Below, in pieces: positions 8,912-61,823 of a stretch of DNA of 64,000 nucleotides (the first letter of the stretch is position 1; each line of letters opens with the position of its first letter). Under the pieces are notes generated by a model. The model had not been told where the DNA came from and made no database searches. It worked only from the letters and a program-made list of their open reading frames with translations. Source of the DNA: Peptostreptococcaceae bacterium pGA-8 (GTDB lineage: Bacteria; Bacillota; Clostridia; Peptostreptococcales; Anaerovoracaceae); assembly GCA_900112915.1 (NCBI GenBank), contig FONK01000011.1, positions 1 through 64,000 on the forward strand, read 5' to 3'. The translations under genes and the position numbers were made by a program.

Positions 8912-9931
8912 TTATTGTTTTACCTCTTCAAGGGCTAACGCCTTATCCTTTTCCATATTTCCCTTGATTACGGATATTTTGGTACGATATTTTTCAGCCT
9001 TCTCGCTATTGCCCATAGCATCATAGACCTTAACCAGCTCGTCCATTGACTCTAAATTGCTGGGTGAAAGCTTAAGAACATTTAAAAAGTATCCTTCTGC
9101 CATTTCCAAATATCCAAGCTCTTTATTGGCAACTCCAAGATAGTGCCACAGGGGCCACCATTTATTGAAGTTCTCGTTCTCCGTATAGGGTATCAAAGTG
9201 TCTATGCCCTCCTGAAACCTGCCCGAAACGACCATATTATATCCTGCCTCTATTTTTACCGGCTCCTTCAGCTTAATAATCCACTGAGAAACCTCCTCCT
9301 TCATCTCCTCATTTGCACTTAGCTTAAGGAAGGACTCAAAGGTCAGCTTGGCCTTTACATACATTCCCAAATTCAGATATCCATAGCCCAGGAAGTAAAA
9401 CCCCATATCAAAATCCGGCTTTTTAAGAGTAACCTTTTCAAAAGCCTCCAATGCCTCAGCCTTGAAAAGTCCCACATATTCCTCGCTGTCACCGGCCTCA
9501 TAGCAGTCCTTACAAGCTCTACCATAGCAATATATTGCATCAGCATTTTCATGGTCGATCAAAAAAGCCGCCCTAAAGAGTATGCAAGCATAAAGATAGC
9601 CATTTTTTGTCGCCGAGTCTATGCCTTCGCCTACTAAAAACTTAGCAAAGTCCTTGGTATAATTTCTAATGATAAACTCTATATAGTTGTCCCTATGTTG
9701 AAAATTGACATCGCATCCAATTACAACCGCCATATTTACAGCAAGACTTTTTATAGAAAGCTTTGTAAGCTCCTTCTTATTTACCGGCACCGGAACTCCT
9801 GTAAGAATATCATCAAAGCCATTTTTCTTTAAAAAATTCTCTGAAAGCTCATCGAAAATATATGTATCCAAATGCCCTACCAGGTATTTCCCTATTCTAT
9901 CTTCCAACGTTTCGGTATTTCTATTTGCCAT
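8912..9931 (-). CDS. TPR-repeat-like protein of unknown function
   Basis: The 339-residue soluble protein is rich in paired helices. Segments such as NADAIYCYGRACKDCYEAGD, FYFLGYGYLNLGMYVKAKLT, LWHYLGVANKELGYLEMAEG and SMDELVKVYDAMGNSEKAEK read as tetratricopeptide-type repeats at about residues 128, 176, 264 and 298. The first ~100 residues are a separate helical domain with HRDNYIEFI. No catalytic motif is visible. It overlaps the upstream B12-type radical SAM gene by 11 bases and ends the operon, which suggests a scaffold or partner role for the radical SAM proteins. That is inference from position. Confidence 0.75.
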   Translation of the reverse strand: MANRNTETLEDRIGKYLVGHLDTYIFDELSENFLKKNGFDDILTGVPVPVNKKELTKLSIKSLAVNMAVVIGCDVNFQHRDNYIEFIIRNYTKDFAKFLVGEGIDSATKNGYLYACILFRAAFLIDHENADAIYCYGRACKDCYEAGDSEEYVGLFKAEALEAFEKVTLKKPDFDMGFYFLGYGYLNLGMYVKAKLTFESFLKLSANEEMKEEVSQWIIKLKEPVKIEAGYNMVVSGRFQEGIDTLIPYTENENFNKWWPLWHYLGVANKELGYLEMAEGYFLNVLKLSPSNLESMDELVKVYDAMGNSEKAEKYRTKISVIKGNMEKDKALALEEVKQ

Positions 9932-11453
9932 TAAACATCCAACCTTTCTTGTAAAATTTCTTTACCGCATCAAAATTCATAGTTTCTTCCAAATCTACCT
10001 TTAGAATATTCATTGTCGCTTCGGTGAAATCCTTATACTCAATGGGAAACATCAGCTCCTTTGCCAAAGCGTATCCATACAGAATTCTATAGTTGTCTTC
10101 CTTCTTATGATAGCGGTGCTGATATCCATTTTCGTGATAAAAGCGTGCTAAATCTTCATAGAAATCAAATGGAGACAAATTTGTTCCTTCCATAAGGAAG
10201 CTTAAGGCTCTACCGAATCCGCCTCTATTATAAAAAACATCTAAAACTCTTTCAATCTCCTTCAGGGACACTAATTCCTCTGCAGACATTCCGGCTGTTG
10301 AAATCACCTCATAAGGCGCTTTATGCCTAAACACATAGCCAAACTCATCAGCCTCATCTCTTATTTCAGTTCCTCTAAGCAGCTTTAGAAAGCCTAGCTG
10401 AATCTCATCTGCTCCGGTGCCATAGACCTCATTAAATGAATTGGCAAAGCTTCTCATATCCTCTCCCGGCAGGCCTGCAATTAAATCTACATGAAGCTCT
10501 ATATTGCCCGTCTTTATTAATCTTCGAATATTTTCAAAAAGCTTTAGAGTATTGTCATTTCTGCCAACTGCTTGTAGAACCTGACCGTTTACTGTTTGGA
10601 TGCCTATTTCAAATCGAAAAAGCTCAGGTCGTGCCTTTTCTAAAAGAGCAAAGTCCTCATCCCTTAACAGGTCTCCGCAGATTTCAAAATGAAAATTAGT
10701 GACACCATTGTCATTTTCAATTAGGTATTTCCAAATTTCAGCCGCCCTATCCCTATCATAATTAAAGGTTCTGTCTAAAAGCTTAACCTGCTTAACCTTT
10801 CTGTCATTAAAATACTTAAACTCGTGCTTTACTCTGTCCATAGAAAGGCTGCGTATTCCCTTATCAATAGAAGACAGGCAATATGAGCATCTAAATGGGC
10901 ACCCCCGTGATGTCTCATAATACACAACCTTATCACCATCAAGAGGCAGCCTTGCGTAGGGGAACTGAAGCCTATTCAAATCAATGACACAGGGAAGGCC
11001 GTTGTCAATAATCCTTCCCGCTGCCCCTCTCAGCACTAACCCGGCAATTCCCTCAAGAGGCTTTCCCAAAGTCACATTCTTACAAAACTCAAAAATGCTT
11101 CTTTCCCCTTCTCCTCTGATTATGTAATCACACCAGGGATTTTCCTCCATGAAATCAGCGCAATCAAAAGAAACCTCAGGACCACCCAGCAGTATTTTTA
11201 AACTCGGCTGAGCAGCCTTAAGATTGGCGCAAAGTTCCTTTGTCTTTTCAATATTCCAAATATAGCAGGAAAAACACACCATATCGTAGCCGGGCTTTAA
11301 AATCTCGCCATAGACATAGTCTGCTTCATTGTTAAGTGTAAATTCCTTAAGATCCACCTGAAAGTCTCCCCCTGTAACGGCGTTATAGAGATATTTCAAG
11401 GCCAAATTAGAATGAACATATTTGGAATTAAGTGTCGTTAACAATAGCTTCAT
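9921..11453 (-). CDS. cobalamin-binding-domain radical SAM protein (DUF4080-like)
   Basis: The 510-residue protein starts with a Rossmann-type B12-binding domain (LLLTTLNSKYVHSNLALKYL, LLGGPEVSFD, CDYIIRGEGE), followed by a radical SAM core with a canonical CX3CX2C cluster motif in SRGCPFRCSYCLSS and the barrel strands VKLLDRTFNYDR, FHFEICGD and FEIGIQTVN. A C-terminal helical domain of about 130 residues resembles DUF4080. Class-B members use cobalamin plus SAM to methylate or rearrange unactivated carbons, but this subfamily's substrate is unknown. The ATG shares its base with the stop of the preceding radical SAM gene (TAATG), so the two are coupled. Confidence 0.88.
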   Translation of the reverse strand: MKLLLTTLNSKYVHSNLALKYLYNAVTGGDFQVDLKEFTLNNEADYVYGEILKPGYDMVCFSCYIWNIEKTKELCANLKAAQPSLKILLGGPEVSFDCADFMEENPWCDYIIRGEGERSIFEFCKNVTLGKPLEGIAGLVLRGAAGRIIDNGLPCVIDLNRLQFPYARLPLDGDKVVYYETSRGCPFRCSYCLSSIDKGIRSLSMDRVKHEFKYFNDRKVKQVKLLDRTFNYDRDRAAEIWKYLIENDNGVTNFHFEICGDLLRDEDFALLEKARPELFRFEIGIQTVNGQVLQAVGRNDNTLKLFENIRRLIKTGNIELHVDLIAGLPGEDMRSFANSFNEVYGTGADEIQLGFLKLLRGTEIRDEADEFGYVFRHKAPYEVISTAGMSAEELVSLKEIERVLDVFYNRGGFGRALSFLMEGTNLSPFDFYEDLARFYHENGYQHRYHKKEDNYRILYGYALAKELMFPIEYKDFTEATMNILKVDLEETMNFDAVKKFYKKGWMFNGK

Positions 11454-56868: not shown

Positions 56869-57804
56869 CTATTTCAGCTTGTCCAGTTTTCCCAGCTTTT
56901 CCGCCCAATAGCTCCAGCCCTGCGTCATAAGCTTTCTTCCTGCAAACATAGCAGTAAGGCTAGGATCCAGCGGCGGTGCGATCTCAACAATATCGAAGCC
57001 GATTACATTTAAATGAGTAAATAGCTTATCCAAAAGCTTTAATGCCATCCTTGCATTTATACCGCCAAATTGAGGAGTGCCGGTTCCGGCCGCAAAGCCG
57101 GGGTCTAAGGCATCAATATCAAAGGTAATATATACCTTATTGAATTTCTTCATTTTTTCAATGCAGGCATCAGCTACAGCTTCAATACCCTCATCGTAGC
57201 ACTCTGCAGCTGTTTTGATATTAAATTCTCCCTCTCTTACCAAGTCAAATTCATCCTTTTCAATGCTCCTAATTCCTATAAAATAGAGATTTTCAGGGCC
57301 GGTAATATTTTCCAATTCAAGAGCTCTTCTCTCTGTACAGCCGTGGCTTAACTTGTCTCCACCCATTTCATCGCAAAGGTCTAAATGAGCATCAATATGG
57401 ACAATTCCAAATTCCTCTGAAAGTGCCTTGTTAATTCCTCTGTGCACCGGAATTGTAACACTATGGTCACCACCGATCATTGTAAAGGGCTTGCCCATTT
57501 TTACAAGAGATTCAACATAGTCTTCAACCTCTTTAAATATAACTTCTCTGTCAGTGCCTCTGAAATCTCCTCCATCTACTATCTTAAATCTATCAAAAAA
57601 GTCAAGCTGCTCATTGCAAGGTGTAGAGGTTAAGGTATTTCTTCTGAGCATATCCGGTGCTTCTGCTGCTCCGCTTCTATAGCTAACACTTCCATCATAT
57701 GGAATTCCAAAGATTACAGCATCAGCCTGAGACTCCTCTAAATCCGGTCTGTTAAGCCCACACCAAGTTTCTGTCAGCTCTGAATATCGGTCTTTATTTC
57801 TCAT
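56869..57804 (-). CDS. agmatinase/arginase-family ureohydrolase
   Basis: The 311-residue enzyme has the binuclear manganese motifs GGDHSVT, DAHLDLCDE and FDIDALDPGFAAGTGTP. The last motif and length fit agmatinase (SpeB), which makes putrescine and urea, better than arginase or formiminoglutamase, but substrate is not certain. It stands alone with AAGGAGG ahead of the ATG. Confidence 0.88.
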   Translation of the reverse strand: MRNKDRYSELTETWCGLNRPDLEESQADAVIFGIPYDGSVSYRSGAAEAPDMLRRNTLTSTPCNEQLDFFDRFKIVDGGDFRGTDREVIFKEVEDYVESLVKMGKPFTMIGGDHSVTIPVHRGINKALSEEFGIVHIDAHLDLCDEMGGDKLSHGCTERRALELENITGPENLYFIGIRSIEKDEFDLVREGEFNIKTAAECYDEGIEAVADACIEKMKKFNKVYITFDIDALDPGFAAGTGTPQFGGINARMALKLLDKLFTHLNVIGFDIVEIAPPLDPSLTAMFAGRKLMTQGWSYWAEKLGKLDKLK

Positions 57805-57959: not shown

Positions 57960-60900
57960 TTACTTATATTTTTTGTTAAATGTAAAGATTGCTAATGAAG
58001 CGAACAGCAGCATGGCAAATAAGGCAATACTATTTTCATCGCCGGTCTTTGAGCTTCGCTGCGCAGCTTCAAGCTTATCCACTTTTACCTTGGATATATT
58101 CCCATTTGAATTATTTTGTTCCGGATTTTTCTGTCCAACAATCGGGGCATCCGGCTTCTTCGGTTCATCGGGTTTAGGATTTTCAGGTTCGTCAGCAGGA
58201 GGCTCCGGTTGTTTAATAACCTTAAGCTTGCCCATGGCAAATCCGGTAGCGGTATTCATTTTTACATCGTAATCCCCCTCAGGCAGTTCTTCTATAGCTT
58301 GTGATTTTAGATTTACAATTATGCTGCCTTCTTTTGCTTCATAATCATCTGTACCTAAAGTTTTTCCATCTAATTCTACAGATAGCAGCTGATTCAAATG
58401 TAATCCCTTTATTCTAAAGGCTGCCCCTTTAGAGATGCCTTTAGTATATACTACCTTATTTCCTTCACATTCAACATTGTTATCCTTGTTTATCCCACCA
58501 ACCGTTTCAACTTCAGACTCTCCACGAACCACTACAGTTGCATATGGTCTGGATACGTCTAATTTACCATCTACAAAGGCTGATACCTTATAGACTCCGG
58601 GGCTATTGAACGTATATGAGATTTTTCCATTTCTATCAGTCTTATCTTCACTTACAAATTCGCCGTTGTTAAATTCCAAGGTTGCATTGCTGATAGGAAA
58701 ATGCGGCTTATCTTGGAAGATGAGATATCCCATTAAGGTGAATTCCACTTTCTCACCTTTTTTAATTTCATAGTCCTTTTCCTTGAAATATTGGAAGGTT
58801 GTCGGCTGCTGCCAGTCATCGTCATAGAAGATGCACAAGTCATCCAACTCATTAAGGTGTAGCCCGTTAACAAGCTTGTTCGACATTTCGTCATTGCATG
58901 TAAACAAAAAGCTTCCATTTTGAGTTTTAGGTGACCACAGGTTCGGTCCCAATTCCTTCATCCATCCTGCGTTGTCCCCGCAGTCGAACTGCGCCCTGTC
59001 CGCAGTATTTATACCCTTTTCCCTCAAAACCTTTTCCATAGCCAGTACAGGAACAGGTGCATCAAAGTCCACGTTGGTATAATAATCTACACCCTTTGTA
59101 AAATATAGCTTATCTATGACTACGGCTGTTTTGTCGACGACAGATTTGCCTATGTCCTCCATCCTGACATATACCTTAACCGGCTGAACCTCCACCTGCA
59201 CTTCGGATCTAATGTCGGAATGACCCTTTACCTCTGCAATCAGCTTGGTGTTTCCTGCCTGAAAGCCCTTTACCATACCCTTTTCTTCATCTATCAGCAG
59301 ATGTTTTCCTGACTCCAGGTGAATATCCAGGTCTGACCTTGGCAGCTTTATTGTCTTGCCGCGATAGCTTAATGTGAAGCCTACATTCTCACCCAGTGTC
59401 AGAGCTGTTTTGTCCATGGTAAGTCGGAAATCATTTTCCGGAGCTCCATCGCTGTAAACGGCTTTCACCACTGTATCTCCATCTAAAACAAAGCTGCCTG
59501 TATAAGCTACTCCACCTCGTTTAAGCTCTGCTGTAATGTCTTTTTCATTGACTAAAAGCTTATCTAAGGTTTTTCCACTCGGTTCAACAACGGAAATATC
59601 AACGGTTCTGCCATCGCTAATCTGACCCGGAGCAGGGTTACAGGCTATACCTTCTCCTTCAACGCTAAGATTAACTTTTGCAGCTTCCTTGTATGTGAAT
59701 ACAACCTCATTGTCATCCTTAGATATGGTTTTGGTAATTGCTTCAGGTGTAATATATCCACCTATGTAGGTAGGCTTAAATTCATAGCTTTTACCTTCTG
59801 TATAGAAGTTTTCACCAATGATAGCTTCTGTTACATTATCCTTCAGATAAATATTTGTTACATAGCTCGGCTCTTCTTCGCTGTATCTAAGAACATAGTC
59901 CTTATAATAATGTCCATCGCCCGGCTTATATTTGAATTTGTTTTTGTATGTTTCTTTGGAATCAATCCATGGTATATTTTTTTCATATCCTACAACAGTC
60001 TCGGATGGAGCTATATCTTTGCCATTTTCATCTTGATATTTAATCGTTACAGGCTGTGGATTAACCACACCCCTTGTATTAATTGTCGTAGCTTTCCCTG
60101 ATTTATCATATACCTTAGTTAGTCTGACTTGACCCTTGGAGCCTATGCCTGAAGGGTCCTCCTTTTTTATGAAATTTCTGAATAGGAATCCCTTGGAGCC
60201 TTCCTTTCCATTGTTCATAACATTTATCTTTTCAATGCCCTCAGGAATATTGAACTCTTCAAGCATGGCCAGATTAAATGCATCAGCACCGATTACCTTT
60301 AAATTTTCAGAAAATTTGATTGATTTCAGCGGAGTTCCTGAAAAGCAGTCTACTCCAATTTCAGTAATATAGTCCGGAAGTGTTATTTCTTCAATAGCTG
60401 TTTGGGCAAAGGTTGATGTTCCCGTTGATTTAAACTTGCCGTTTTCCGGGAAGTTTACCTTGGATAGCTTATTGTTGCCCCAAAAAGCCCTGGTTCCTAA
60501 GTCGGTCAAGGTAGACGGCAGAGTAATCTCCTTTATGTCATTACCTTGAAATGCCCATTCTCCCATGCTCTCTAAGCCTTCCGGCAGGGTAAGCTTGGTT
60601 ATTTTATTCTTAACCTTGGTGTCATTTGGTCTATCAGAATATCTGAAAGCATCCTTCCCAAAGGTTCTTACCTTAACGCCGTCTATTTCCGCCGGAATTA
60701 TAACCTCCGTAGGATTGTCCTTGTTCTTAAAGCCGTTGAGGCTGCCGGTTTTCTTATCAAACTTCCATATGGACGGGTCCTTGATACTTACATAAAGTAC
60801 TGCTGATGCGCCATCCTTGTCCTTCAAGGTAATTGACGTTGTGCCTTCTTCTTTTCCTTTAACGGTAAGCACATCTTTTTCTGCGCTTGCATCTAAGTAT

Positions 60901-61517
60901 TTCTTAGCATAATTGGACATTTCCACCGAAAGGGTCGGCGCTATCTCTTCTTTCCCTTCAGTATATCCTTTAATTTTAAATTGCTTTGTCTCACCTATCA
61001 GGACTATAGCATCTATATCCTTGACATCTAAGGTTTTAACCTTAGGTATTACCGGTGTCTCCGGTTCTGTAACCTTTGCGGTAATAACAAGAGGCTTTAC
61101 ATCAATATTATTTATCTTGCTGCCATAGGTTACCGTAATAGTGTGATTGCCGGGTTTTTTAGCTGTTACTGAATTGTGAGTCCCTTCGGTTTTTTTTAAA
61201 AGCAGTCCGTCATCGCTTTGCCATCTGATATCAGTATAGCGTGGCTCTTCATCACCAAAGTCTTCATCAAGCCAATTGTATTCAAATCCCTTTTTATCTA
61301 CAACGGCTGCTCCTATATTGATGCTTTCTCCAACTTTAATTTCAAAGGGATTAGAATCTGTCTTCGGAGCTGTCAGCTCTGACTTTGACCGCATCTGTAA
61401 ATTGTAATCACTTTCATATTTTGCCTCCTTGGCAAAAGACTCAGTGGTCAATACCGGTGCCAGAAGCGAACATACCAGCACTAAGCATAGCAATCTACTA
61501 AAAATTTTCTTCGCCAT
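57960..61517 (-). CDS. B12-riboswitch-linked surface protein: Ig-like, LRR and transcobalamin-like domains
   Basis: This protein of about 1,185 residues has a signal peptide, two Ig-like (BIG2-type) segments at about 55-245, BspA-like leucine-rich repeats at about 255-430 (KLTLPEGLESMGEWAFQGN, EITLPSTLTDLGTRAF), MucBP-like strands at about 490-620 (VTIKYQDENGKDI), another Ig-like stretch, and at about 780-930 a segment patterned like the DUF4430 transcobalamin-type domain (VKVYVRMED, PVLAMEKVLREKGI, DYEIKKGEKVEFTL) with three cysteines. A Pro-rich spacer and a SKTGD-hydrophobic-KKYK tail resemble a degenerate sortase signal. A cobalamin riboswitch precedes it, so a role in capturing B12 at the surface is likely. 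The ATG at 61517 follows AAGGAGG. Confidence 0.85.
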   Translation of the reverse strand: MAKKIFSRLLCLVLVCSLLAPVLTTESFAKEAKYESDYNLQMRSKSELTAPKTDSNPFEIKVGESINIGAAVVDKKGFEYNWLDEDFGDEEPRYTDIRWQSDDGLLLKKTEGTHNSVTAKKPGNHTITVTYGSKINNIDVKPLVITAKVTEPETPVIPKVKTLDVKDIDAIVLIGETKQFKIKGYTEGKEEIAPTLSVEMSNYAKKYLDASAEKDVLTVKGKEEGTTSITLKDKDGASAVLYVSIKDPSIWKFDKKTGSLNGFKNKDNPTEVIIPAEIDGVKVRTFGKDAFRYSDRPNDTKVKNKITKLTLPEGLESMGEWAFQGNDIKEITLPSTLTDLGTRAFWGNNKLSKVNFPENGKFKSTGTSTFAQTAIEEITLPDYITEIGVDCFSGTPLKSIKFSENLKVIGADAFNLAMLEEFNIPEGIEKINVMNNGKEGSKGFLFRNFIKKEDPSGIGSKGQVRLTKVYDKSGKATTINTRGVVNPQPVTIKYQDENGKDIAPSETVVGYEKNIPWIDSKETYKNKFKYKPGDGHYYKDYVLRYSEEEPSYVTNIYLKDNVTEAIIGENFYTEGKSYEFKPTYIGGYITPEAITKTISKDDNEVVFTYKEAAKVNLSVEGEGIACNPAPGQISDGRTVDISVVEPSGKTLDKLLVNEKDITAELKRGGVAYTGSFVLDGDTVVKAVYSDGAPENDFRLTMDKTALTLGENVGFTLSYRGKTIKLPRSDLDIHLESGKHLLIDEEKGMVKGFQAGNTKLIAEVKGHSDIRSEVQVEVQPVKVYVRMEDIGKSVVDKTAVVIDKLYFTKGVDYYTNVDFDAPVPVLAMEKVLREKGINTADRAQFDCGDNAGWMKELGPNLWSPKTQNGSFLFTCNDEMSNKLVNGLHLNELDDLCIFYDDDWQQPTTFQYFKEKDYEIKKGEKVEFTLMGYLIFQDKPHFPISNATLEFNNGEFVSEDKTDRNGKISYTFNSPGVYKVSAFVDGKLDVSRPYATVVVRGESEVETVGGINKDNNVECEGNKVVYTKGISKGAAFRIKGLHLNQLLSVELDGKTLGTDDYEAKEGSIIVNLKSQAIEELPEGDYDVKMNTATGFAMGKLKVIKQPEPPADEPENPKPDEPKKPDAPIVGQKNPEQNNSNGNISKVKVDKLEAAQRSSKTGDENSIALFAMLLFASLAIFTFNKKYK

Positions 61518-61563
61518 CATTTCCTCCTTTTTCACTTACTACGAAATATGGCTTAGAAGGTTG

Positions 61564-61597
61564 AAAATAAAAATTGCAGCCTACAAGAAGCTGCAAT
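61564..61597 (-). terminator. riboswitch expression-platform terminator
   Basis: An 8-bp stem (ATTGCAGC / GCTGCAAT, 61573-61597, nine-base loop) is followed on the minus strand by TTTTTATTTT, between the cobalamin aptamer and the surface-protein start. It should stop transcription when B12 is bound. Confidence 0.85.
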
Positions 61598-61688
61598 TAG
61601 ATACTACCATAGAACAAAACATGAAGCGCAAAATGTTCTGTCATAGAAACCTAATAATCCATCGCTCGTAGATTTAGATTTTACCGGA

Positions 61689-61774
61689 CAACATAGGCAA
61701 TCTGGCTTTAGGATGTTTAGTTCCTTCACAGTGGCGGGACCGCTTAAGATTTTCACTTAATTCCCCTATTGTTG
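61689..61774 (-). ncRNA. cobalamin riboswitch aptamer core
   Basis: The minus strand carries the conserved B12 elements in order: a CAACAATAGG arm, GGGGAATTAAGTGAAAATCT, GGTCCCGCCACTGTGA, a small AGGA/TCCT stem, AAGCCAGATTGCCTAT (B12-box equivalent) and the closing CCTATGTTG arm that pairs with the first. A promoter lies directly upstream and a terminator hairpin downstream at 61564-61597. The bounds given are the recognisable core; peripheral helices may extend to about 61640. Confidence 0.92.
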
Positions 61775-61794
61775 CTCTATTGAATTGTAGTAAG

Positions 61795-61823
61795 ATTTTA
61801 TCATAAATACTCAAAGTGTTCAA
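61795..61823 (-). promoter_or_regulatory. promoter of the riboswitch transcript
   Basis: TTGAAC (61823-61818) and TAAAAT (61800-61795) are 17 bases apart on the minus strand, about 20 bases before the aptamer core. Confidence 0.78.

Follow-up and report, generated by a model that had tools for sequence, protein, structure and literature searches.

What does a gene for a large leucine-rich repeat (LRR) surface protein do behind a cobalamin riboswitch? The question is raised by a stretch of 64,000 nucleotides from Peptostreptococcaceae bacterium pGA-8 (contig FONK01000011.1, positions 1 to 64,000; hereafter the window), in which an adenosylcobalamin (AdoCbl) aptamer precedes, on the minus strand, a gene for a protein of about 1,185 residues. 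We argue here that this protein, predicted to be controlled by the riboswitch and held in the cell wall, probably captures cobamides at the cell surface, a reading drawn from its sequence and from those of its relatives. The capture of B12-type vitamins outside the membrane by Gram-positive anaerobes is little studied, and the accessible text of a paper on Bacteroides describes the Firmicutes as less well known in this respect (PMC8941943).

A cobalamin riboswitch precedes the gene for a wall-directed surface protein

The leader and its gene comprise the following features.

61795..61823, minus strand: promoter-like site TTGAAC-17-TAAAAT, with TG before the second hexamer (9/12 match)
61644..61788, minus strand: AdoCbl riboswitch aptamer (RF01482, 58.8 bits; RF00174, 37.1 bits)
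61572..61598, minus strand: intrinsic-terminator-like hairpin, the likely expression platform (11 pairs and a T-run)
57960..61520, minus strand: coding sequence of the LRR surface protein (1,185 amino acids [aa] from the ATG at 61517; 1,186 aa from the ATG at 61520)
61428..61517, minus strand: signal peptide, about residues 1-30 (read by eye)
60801..61040, minus strand: probable immunoglobulin-like (Ig-like) Big_2 domain, residues 160-239 (19.6 bits, below the cut-off of 22.8)
60273..60605, minus strand: BspA-type LRRs, best stretch residues 305-415 (LRR_5, 142 bits against a cut-off of 27.7)
58803..59186, minus strand: divergent DUF4430/transcobalamin-beta-like (SLBB) domain, residues 778-905 (relationship through homologues)
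58518..58805, minus strand: Ig-like domain, residues 905-1000 (after the SLBB domain in all 10 aligned module sequences; the confident part of the AlphaFold model)
58188..58496, minus strand: small domain, about residues 1008-1110 (common to six other places in the genome)
57984..58052, minus strand: cell-wall sorting signal (SKTGD, hydrophobic stretch, KKYK), residues 1156-1178 (TIGR03063, and motif by eye)

The original prediction, made from the letters of the DNA, had placed a promoter, a B12 aptamer and a terminator ahead of the gene. The aptamer is borne out by a cmscan search of the whole window, in which RF01482 matched over its full length (model 1-149 of 149) with E = 3.1e-8 and 58.8 bits, the gathering score being 50, and RF00174 was also over its cut-off at 61815-61675 on the minus strand (37.1 against 31.5 bits). 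A terminator-like hairpin is likewise present, at 61598-61572, and appears in the minimum-energy and centroid structures alike, and terminator-like sites number 2 in the 801-base stretch where 0.3 are expected. The promoter fares less well, for although the site at 61823-61795 exists, it is weak evidence, such sites being frequent (6 observed against 2.7 expected). The leader as a whole is no more stable than its shuffles (z = -0.44), a comparison that does not address the aptamer itself. With aptamer and terminator both in place, ligand-dependent switching is predicted.

The gene is a single uninterrupted long frame (open reading frame [ORF] 61535-57960, minus strand), with GGAGG immediately before the two ATGs at 61520 and 61517, and the nearest downstream ORF begins at 57804; the expectation of one gene for a secreted protein with an anchoring signal held. 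BspA-like LRRs and Ig-like domains had also been anticipated and were found: besides LRR_5 and the probable Big_2 domain, Pfam reports a PKD match ahead of the latter (residues 94-131; 26.3 bits, above the cut-off of 23.5) and a weak MucBP match in the middle stretch, and the PDB matches are to BspA-type and other LRR proteins, all other rows having E >= 0.27. The sorting signal is of the sortase-B type, with TIGR03063 barely over its cut-off (18.4 against 18.15 bits), and the genome has two sortase matches; attachment to the wall by sortase is the fate that these suggest.

A divergent relative of the transcobalamin beta domain

The SLBB domain and the Ig-like domain behind it form a module (residues 745-1010) that recurs in other proteins. 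In an alignment of ten module sequences, which omits partial matches (L025, L056, L057, L058 and others), 9/10 match PF14478 (DUF4430) at E up to 0.01 (best 6.9e-19), the exception being the window's own. A profile made from the direct homologues recovers, in its first round, the genome's stand-alone DUF4430 lipoprotein on C12 (E = 6.9e-9; 222 ORFs). When the window domain and its two orthologues were aligned by hhalign with 21 DUF4430 domains, the match had a probability of 97.2% (E = 3.4e-11); an unrelated profile reached 0.9%, and none of 100 column shuffles exceeded 3.0%. On this evidence from sequence comparison, the window domain is a divergent relative of DUF4430 that is not filed as a member of PF14478, and the segment that the original prediction had likened to DUF4430 and the transcobalamin C-terminal domain is found where it was said to be, established through homologues and hhalign where Pfam misses it.

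DUF4430 in turn leads to transcobalamin. The top PDB match of its profile, among 177,635 PDB sequences, is the C-terminal domain of human transcobalamin-1 (4kki, residues 348-427; E = 0.12), and hhalign scores the two at 88.8%, with 100 shuffles giving at most 7.4%. Transcobalamin is listed when the PDB is searched with the pure DUF4430 set, but not when the profile is that of the entire module or of a mixed set. Matches of the segment to indole-3-glycerol-phosphate synthase, weak and far below cut-off, were set aside as chance.

Recurrent linkage of the module to cobalamin riboswitches

The module is present in 9/99 related genomes, its own included. Its closest relatives are in [Eubacterium] infirmum (G015; 47% identity over the module), of the same family and order (Anaerovoracaceae, Peptostreptococcales), and in a genome of the same genus (G002; 39%). 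Both carry full-length orthologues (42% and 38% identical, respectively, over about 1,000 residues) with LRR_5 and DUF4430, the latter over the cut-off of 23.8 bits in G002 (27.6 bits) and under it in [Eubacterium] infirmum (20.7 bits, E = 5.6e-4). The remaining module matches are 21-36% identical and lie mostly on larger proteins, and scans found no relatives in viral contigs.

What recurs with the module is the riboswitch. Scans of the fetched DNA place a cobalamin riboswitch upstream and on the same strand at 10/12 module loci. At six of them no more than 350 bases separate it from the module gene (G000:C14, which is the window's, G015:C2, G015:C1, G002:C11, G080:C60 and G006:C36), and at the other four, genes stand in between (G000:C4, G075:C8, G063:C3 and G074:C6). 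Riboswitch, LRRs and domain are thus found together again in [Eubacterium] infirmum and in one genome of the same genus, where the riboswitch is 165 bases and 72 bases, respectively, ahead of the orthologue.

The linkage extends to DUF4430 at large, a common domain (42/61 genomes): at least 26/66 hits have a same-strand riboswitch within 10 kb upstream, against 0.58 expected, and at least 13/66 have one within 3 kb, against 0.18. These counts use 66 of 106 hits, the other 40 being in genomes without a riboswitch among those listed, and the hits are clustered in operons and so are not independent.

Toroid-family matches on separate and on shared chains

Transcobalamin has an alpha/alpha toroid as well as the beta domain, and its vitamin lies between the two (PMC1796856, cited throughout from the accessible part of its text). 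Candidates for a toroid exist in the genome: a 311-aa lipoprotein on C22 belongs to a family found in 36/99 related genomes, its own included, with a second own-genome copy on C10. Among 18 members of this family picked from 30 matches, Prenyltrans was matched in 11/18, SQHop_cyclase_C in 10/18 and Cobalamin_bind (PF01122) in 2/18 (best E 0.0026), and the profile of the 18 matches squalene cyclases (about 1e-8) and prenyltransferases in the PDB, transcobalamin not being among the rows. The C22 protein itself matches none of these three families; taken alone, it has no PDB match, and Pfam gave only a DUF4488 row (E = 0.088).

Both halves also occur together. A search of 278 proteins from selected loci, which is no survey, found toroid and DUF4430-profile matches on one chain in 10 ORFs of related loci. 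The largest, a protein of 3,915 aa in G080, matches the toroid profile seven times, two neighbouring matches perhaps being a single domain, and the beta profile twice. Its gene (L055:3539-15286, on G080:C60) begins 336 bases after a cobalamin riboswitch. In G004, of the same genus as the window's genome, a CbiR-like gene adjoins those for a DUF4430 protein and a toroid protein, behind genes that were assigned by eye to the energy-coupling factor (ECF) type.

A regulon mostly of surface and transport genes

RF00174 is over its cut-off at nine places in the genome, and a tenth riboswitch, on C18, scores 45.6 bits with RF01482, under the cut-off of 50. Their downstream genes are as follows.

C14: the window's LRR gene
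C4: an operon of a secreted 382-aa protein, a PF01497 binding protein, ATP-binding cassette (ABC) genes (by eye) and a pair of surface proteins, of which one carries the module
C22, first: a MoxR/DUF58/transglutaminase-like set (Transglut_core and TgpA_N matched, the rest by eye), the last gene being that of the 311-aa lipoprotein (by eye)
C22, other: a 432-aa protein (marginal DUF4430-profile match, E = 0.0084) and a 2,364-aa LRR protein
C16: a similar set (Transglut_core), ending in a DUF4430-like 428-aa protein
C16: a DUF285/Flg_new surface protein ending at the contig edge
C16: PerR- and rubrerythrin-like ORFs (by eye)
C8: a 151-aa secreted ORF
C6: a PcrA-like helicase (by eye)
C18: a dipeptide/nickel-type ABC set (by eye)

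At half of them (5/10, one marginal) the operon that follows encodes an alpha or a beta domain; the 428-aa protein of C16 scored 22.0 bits for DUF4430 against the cut-off of 23.8 and was counted over cut-off in another scan. NEAT-like domains had been suspected in the C4 surface proteins, and no search result supported them.

Some of these loci deserve mention in their own right. The MoxR/DUF58/transglutaminase-like sets (L026:3226-7356, L023:1520-5720 and L135:9256-13468; partly by eye) repeatedly adjoin DUF4430-like or toroid proteins, two of those in this genome standing directly after cobalamin riboswitches. On C6 (L024:6323-6816) the riboswitch lies 295 bases before the PcrA-like helicase gene, and in [Eubacterium] infirmum (L134:11760-15217) a CbiR-like gene stands between riboswitch and helicase, a gene that may have been lost here. 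On C8 (L027:7773-10336) the 151-aa secreted ORF is followed, 43 bases on, by a recombinase-like ORF of 551 aa; read by eye, the locus looks like a B12-regulated surface gene interrupted by a mobile element. On C16 (L026:10888-12426) a strong riboswitch (98.9 bits) precedes by 410 bases the first of the PerR-like and rubrerythrin-like ORFs, which are, if so identified, an unusual target of a cobalamin riboswitch.

The organism's own dealings with B12 can also be read from its genes, beginning with one in the window.

9921..11453, minus strand: B12-binding radical S-adenosylmethionine (SAM) protein (PF02310 and PF04055)

PF02310 matches at six places in the genome, five of them over cut-off and one being this gene; to judge by such genes, the organism uses B12. 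A run on C2 (L129:9675-20000) holds a cbiD-cbiL fusion, cbiF, a cbiG-like gene, cbiH and haem-type genes (these last by eye). The genome scans with RF01482 and RF00174 gave no match on C2 or C12, and the genome's riboswitches are mostly on surface and transport genes. Beside cobT on C12, a TIM-barrel gene (L131:9769-10572) has CbiR as its best NCBIfam match (45.2 bits, well under the cut-off of 105), and CbiR is also the best NCBIfam match, well below cut-off, of the TIM-barrel gene beside the DUF4430 and toroid pair of G004 (L133:10718-11470); both are possible divergent cobamide-remodelling enzymes. A secreted 680-aa protein on C22 (C22:206-2248; L022) matches Bacteroides BtuH2 (7biz_A; E = 3.3e-11 over 125 residues), and its gene adjoins one for a 2,101-aa protein with a DUF4430-like domain; by this match, it is a relative of BtuH in a Gram-positive.

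Proposed function and its alternatives

On these grounds, the system might work as follows. At low intracellular AdoCbl, transcription would read past the terminator and the LRR protein would be made, and at high levels transcription would stop. Once secreted, the protein would be held in the wall by sortase, its Ig-like and LRR parts serving as stalk and adhesive part, and a site of transcobalamin type would have residues 778-905 as its beta (SLBB) half. Its toroid half could come from the separate 311-aa lipoprotein of C22, which belongs to the same regulon, or from its C10 paralogue, so that beta and toroid would together hold a cobamide at the surface. The cobamide would then be handed to the binding-protein-dependent ABC transporter of the C4 riboswitch operon, and captured cobamides could be used or remodelled, as the CbiR-like gene beside cobT hints. 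That the whole forms a split, wall-anchored transcobalamin, with the beta domain on an LRR wall protein and the toroid on a membrane lipoprotein, both in one riboswitch regulon and closing on the cobamide only on meeting, is a more tentative proposal, which we regard as possible rather than probable; relatives in the order have toroid and beta on one and the same chain, the longest being 3,915 residues.

A number of results weigh against cobamide capture by the window protein. By its homology, the beta domain is only half of a transcobalamin, and the toroid profile finds no match in the protein at E up to 100. PF14478 is absent from its Pfam matches at E up to 10, and the module protein of C4 likewise has no DUF4430 match in Pfam. 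Compared directly with transcobalamin-1, the window group gave 0.23% (shuffles up to 5.2%), so that the relation is transitive and only DUF4430 bridges the two. The tryptophan of the GWMYxVN signature is replaced by F or Y in the window group; the register around FDCGDNAGWM differs between the ten-sequence alignment and hhalign, and Pfam's G002 match (residues 867-896 to profile 42-71) agrees with the alignment register that gives F/Y. Structure prediction is of little help either way: AlphaFold models from three sequences (window, L060 and L061) reached a mean predicted local distance difference test (pLDDT) score of 61.8 for the module and 49.0 for the domain alone, only the Ig part being confident and the domain (778-905) poor in both. 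VIA-align on the module model found mostly Ig-type folds, over model residues 140-256, and transcobalamin is absent among the 50 rows listed, which with so poor a model excludes nothing; Foldseek, on the poor domain-only model, found nothing at E <= 0.001. Besides the genome itself, only 1/4 same-genus genomes (G002) has the module, no riboswitch lies in the DNA fetched for G075:C17 and G054:C17, and for 40/66 DUF4430 hits the 10 kb upstream hold no listed riboswitch. Nor is the domain set apart by its conservation, the LRR part (46% and 43% identical to G015 and G002) being conserved as well as the SLBB-like part (51% and 41%). Lastly, CbiD-CbiL, CbiF and CbiH are over their cut-offs and a CbiG-like protein below its own on C2, with CobT and CobS on C12. 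The original prediction had taken the radical SAM gene (11453-9921, minus strand) as a sign of a need for B12; the gene is there, but with the cbi genes, cobT and cobS the organism is probably no simple auxotroph. Prototrophy is likely to judge by the steps covered, and external cobamide is maybe non-essential for a genome so equipped; scavenging would spare cost and permit remodelling rather than meet an absolute need.

Part of this evidence could be read in another way, namely that the protein is a B12-regulated adhesin whose LRR and Ig parts bind host or neighbour surfaces, B12 being a cue to location and the SLBB-like domain a structural or sugar-binding leftover that binds no cobamide. 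LRR_5 is indeed the strongest domain match, the two orthologues conserve the LRR part as well as the domain (43-46% against 41-51%), the signature tryptophan is F or Y in the window group, whose window copy escapes Pfam, and at other B12-riboswitch genes (C16:1-1326 and C8) neither an alpha nor a beta domain can be recognised in the surface protein encoded. Against an adhesin, the module lies downstream of riboswitches at 10/12 loci, in one case within an operon that also holds ABC genes and a gene for a PF01497 binding protein, and distant relatives carry it on giant proteins that also bear toroid domains; we consider this explanation unlikely.

Two further alternatives keep a ligand for the domain. 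It may bind some other soluble compound (a cobalt-free tetrapyrrole, a metal complex or a sugar) and be under B12 control only through its regulon: SLBB domains have been proposed to bind diverse ligands, archaeal carriers possibly binding something else (PMC1796856), but DUF4430 is linked to riboswitches at about 45 times the expected rate (among riboswitches listed) and toroid partners exist, which makes this explanation quite improbable. The protein might instead be a putative receptor that takes cobalamin from a carrier, such as host haptocorrin in saliva or the B12 proteins of other bacteria, the LRRs gripping the carrier and the SLBB domain receiving the vitamin. This would suit the union of LRRs and a ligand-type domain on one wall protein, and the closest named relative with the gene, [Eubacterium] infirmum, is an oral species; even so, we give it the slightest chance of all. 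Capture of cobamides by the window protein remains the probable reading and the one that we prefer.

Comparison with known systems

In 2007 Burroughs et al. (PMC1796856) used the context of domains and operons to predict extracellular transcobalamin-like SLBB proteins in low-GC Gram-positives, and the window system is, by its domains, a variant of the kind then predicted. The likeness covers the SLBB domain, the signal peptide, the Gram-positive anchor, the fusion to Ig-like domains, the suggested scavenging of B12, an alpha/alpha toroid in the same family of systems and operons of the CbiO/CbiQ type. Unlike that set, the window gene has a recurring cobalamin riboswitch and the protein a BspA-LRR fusion, neither riboswitch nor LRR occurring in the text of PMC1796856; its domain is Pfam-negative and the toroid is on a separate lipoprotein; and whereas carriers of SLBB proteins are usually without key B12 biosynthesis genes, this genome keeps its cbi genes. 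The link to cobalamin riboswitches, the fusion with LRRs, a divergent copy that Pfam misses and, in this genome, a toroid encoded apart are features not seen in the accessible part of that paper or in the literature searched, where nothing was found that ties cobalamin riboswitches to LRR surface proteins or to DUF4430, subscription journals being thinly covered.

With the animal proteins transcobalamin, haptocorrin and intrinsic factor, the system shares a transitive relative of the C-terminal beta domain and, within the genome, a toroid family; it differs from them in having no toroid on the window protein's chain, a wall anchor, LRRs and no direct sequence signal. With BspA-type LRR surface proteins, the window protein shares LRR_5 repeats over cut-off, secretion (signal peptide by eye) and anchoring by a sorting signal, and the B12 riboswitch and SLBB-like domain set it apart. 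Locus and relatives together offer a regulated set of parts that can be tested: riboswitch, beta domain and toroid lipoprotein, along with an ABC transporter and perhaps an enzyme of remodelling.

A further parallel is with BtuG and BtuH of Bacteroides, also riboswitch-linked surface proteins, which catch B12 before transport; BtuH2 has Ig-like domains, as has the window protein, and BtuH homologues have already been noted in three Firmicutes species (both from the accessible text of PMC8941943). The window protein had been described as built differently from these, which is true of the binding domains, the outer-membrane system and the lipoprotein anchor of Bacteroides and less so of the genome as a whole, given its BtuH-like gene on C22. 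If the split transcobalamin proposed above were genuine, it would, together with the BtuH-like protein and the riboswitch-controlled ABC operon, give a Gram-positive a full equivalent of the system by which Bacteroides takes B12 at its surface.

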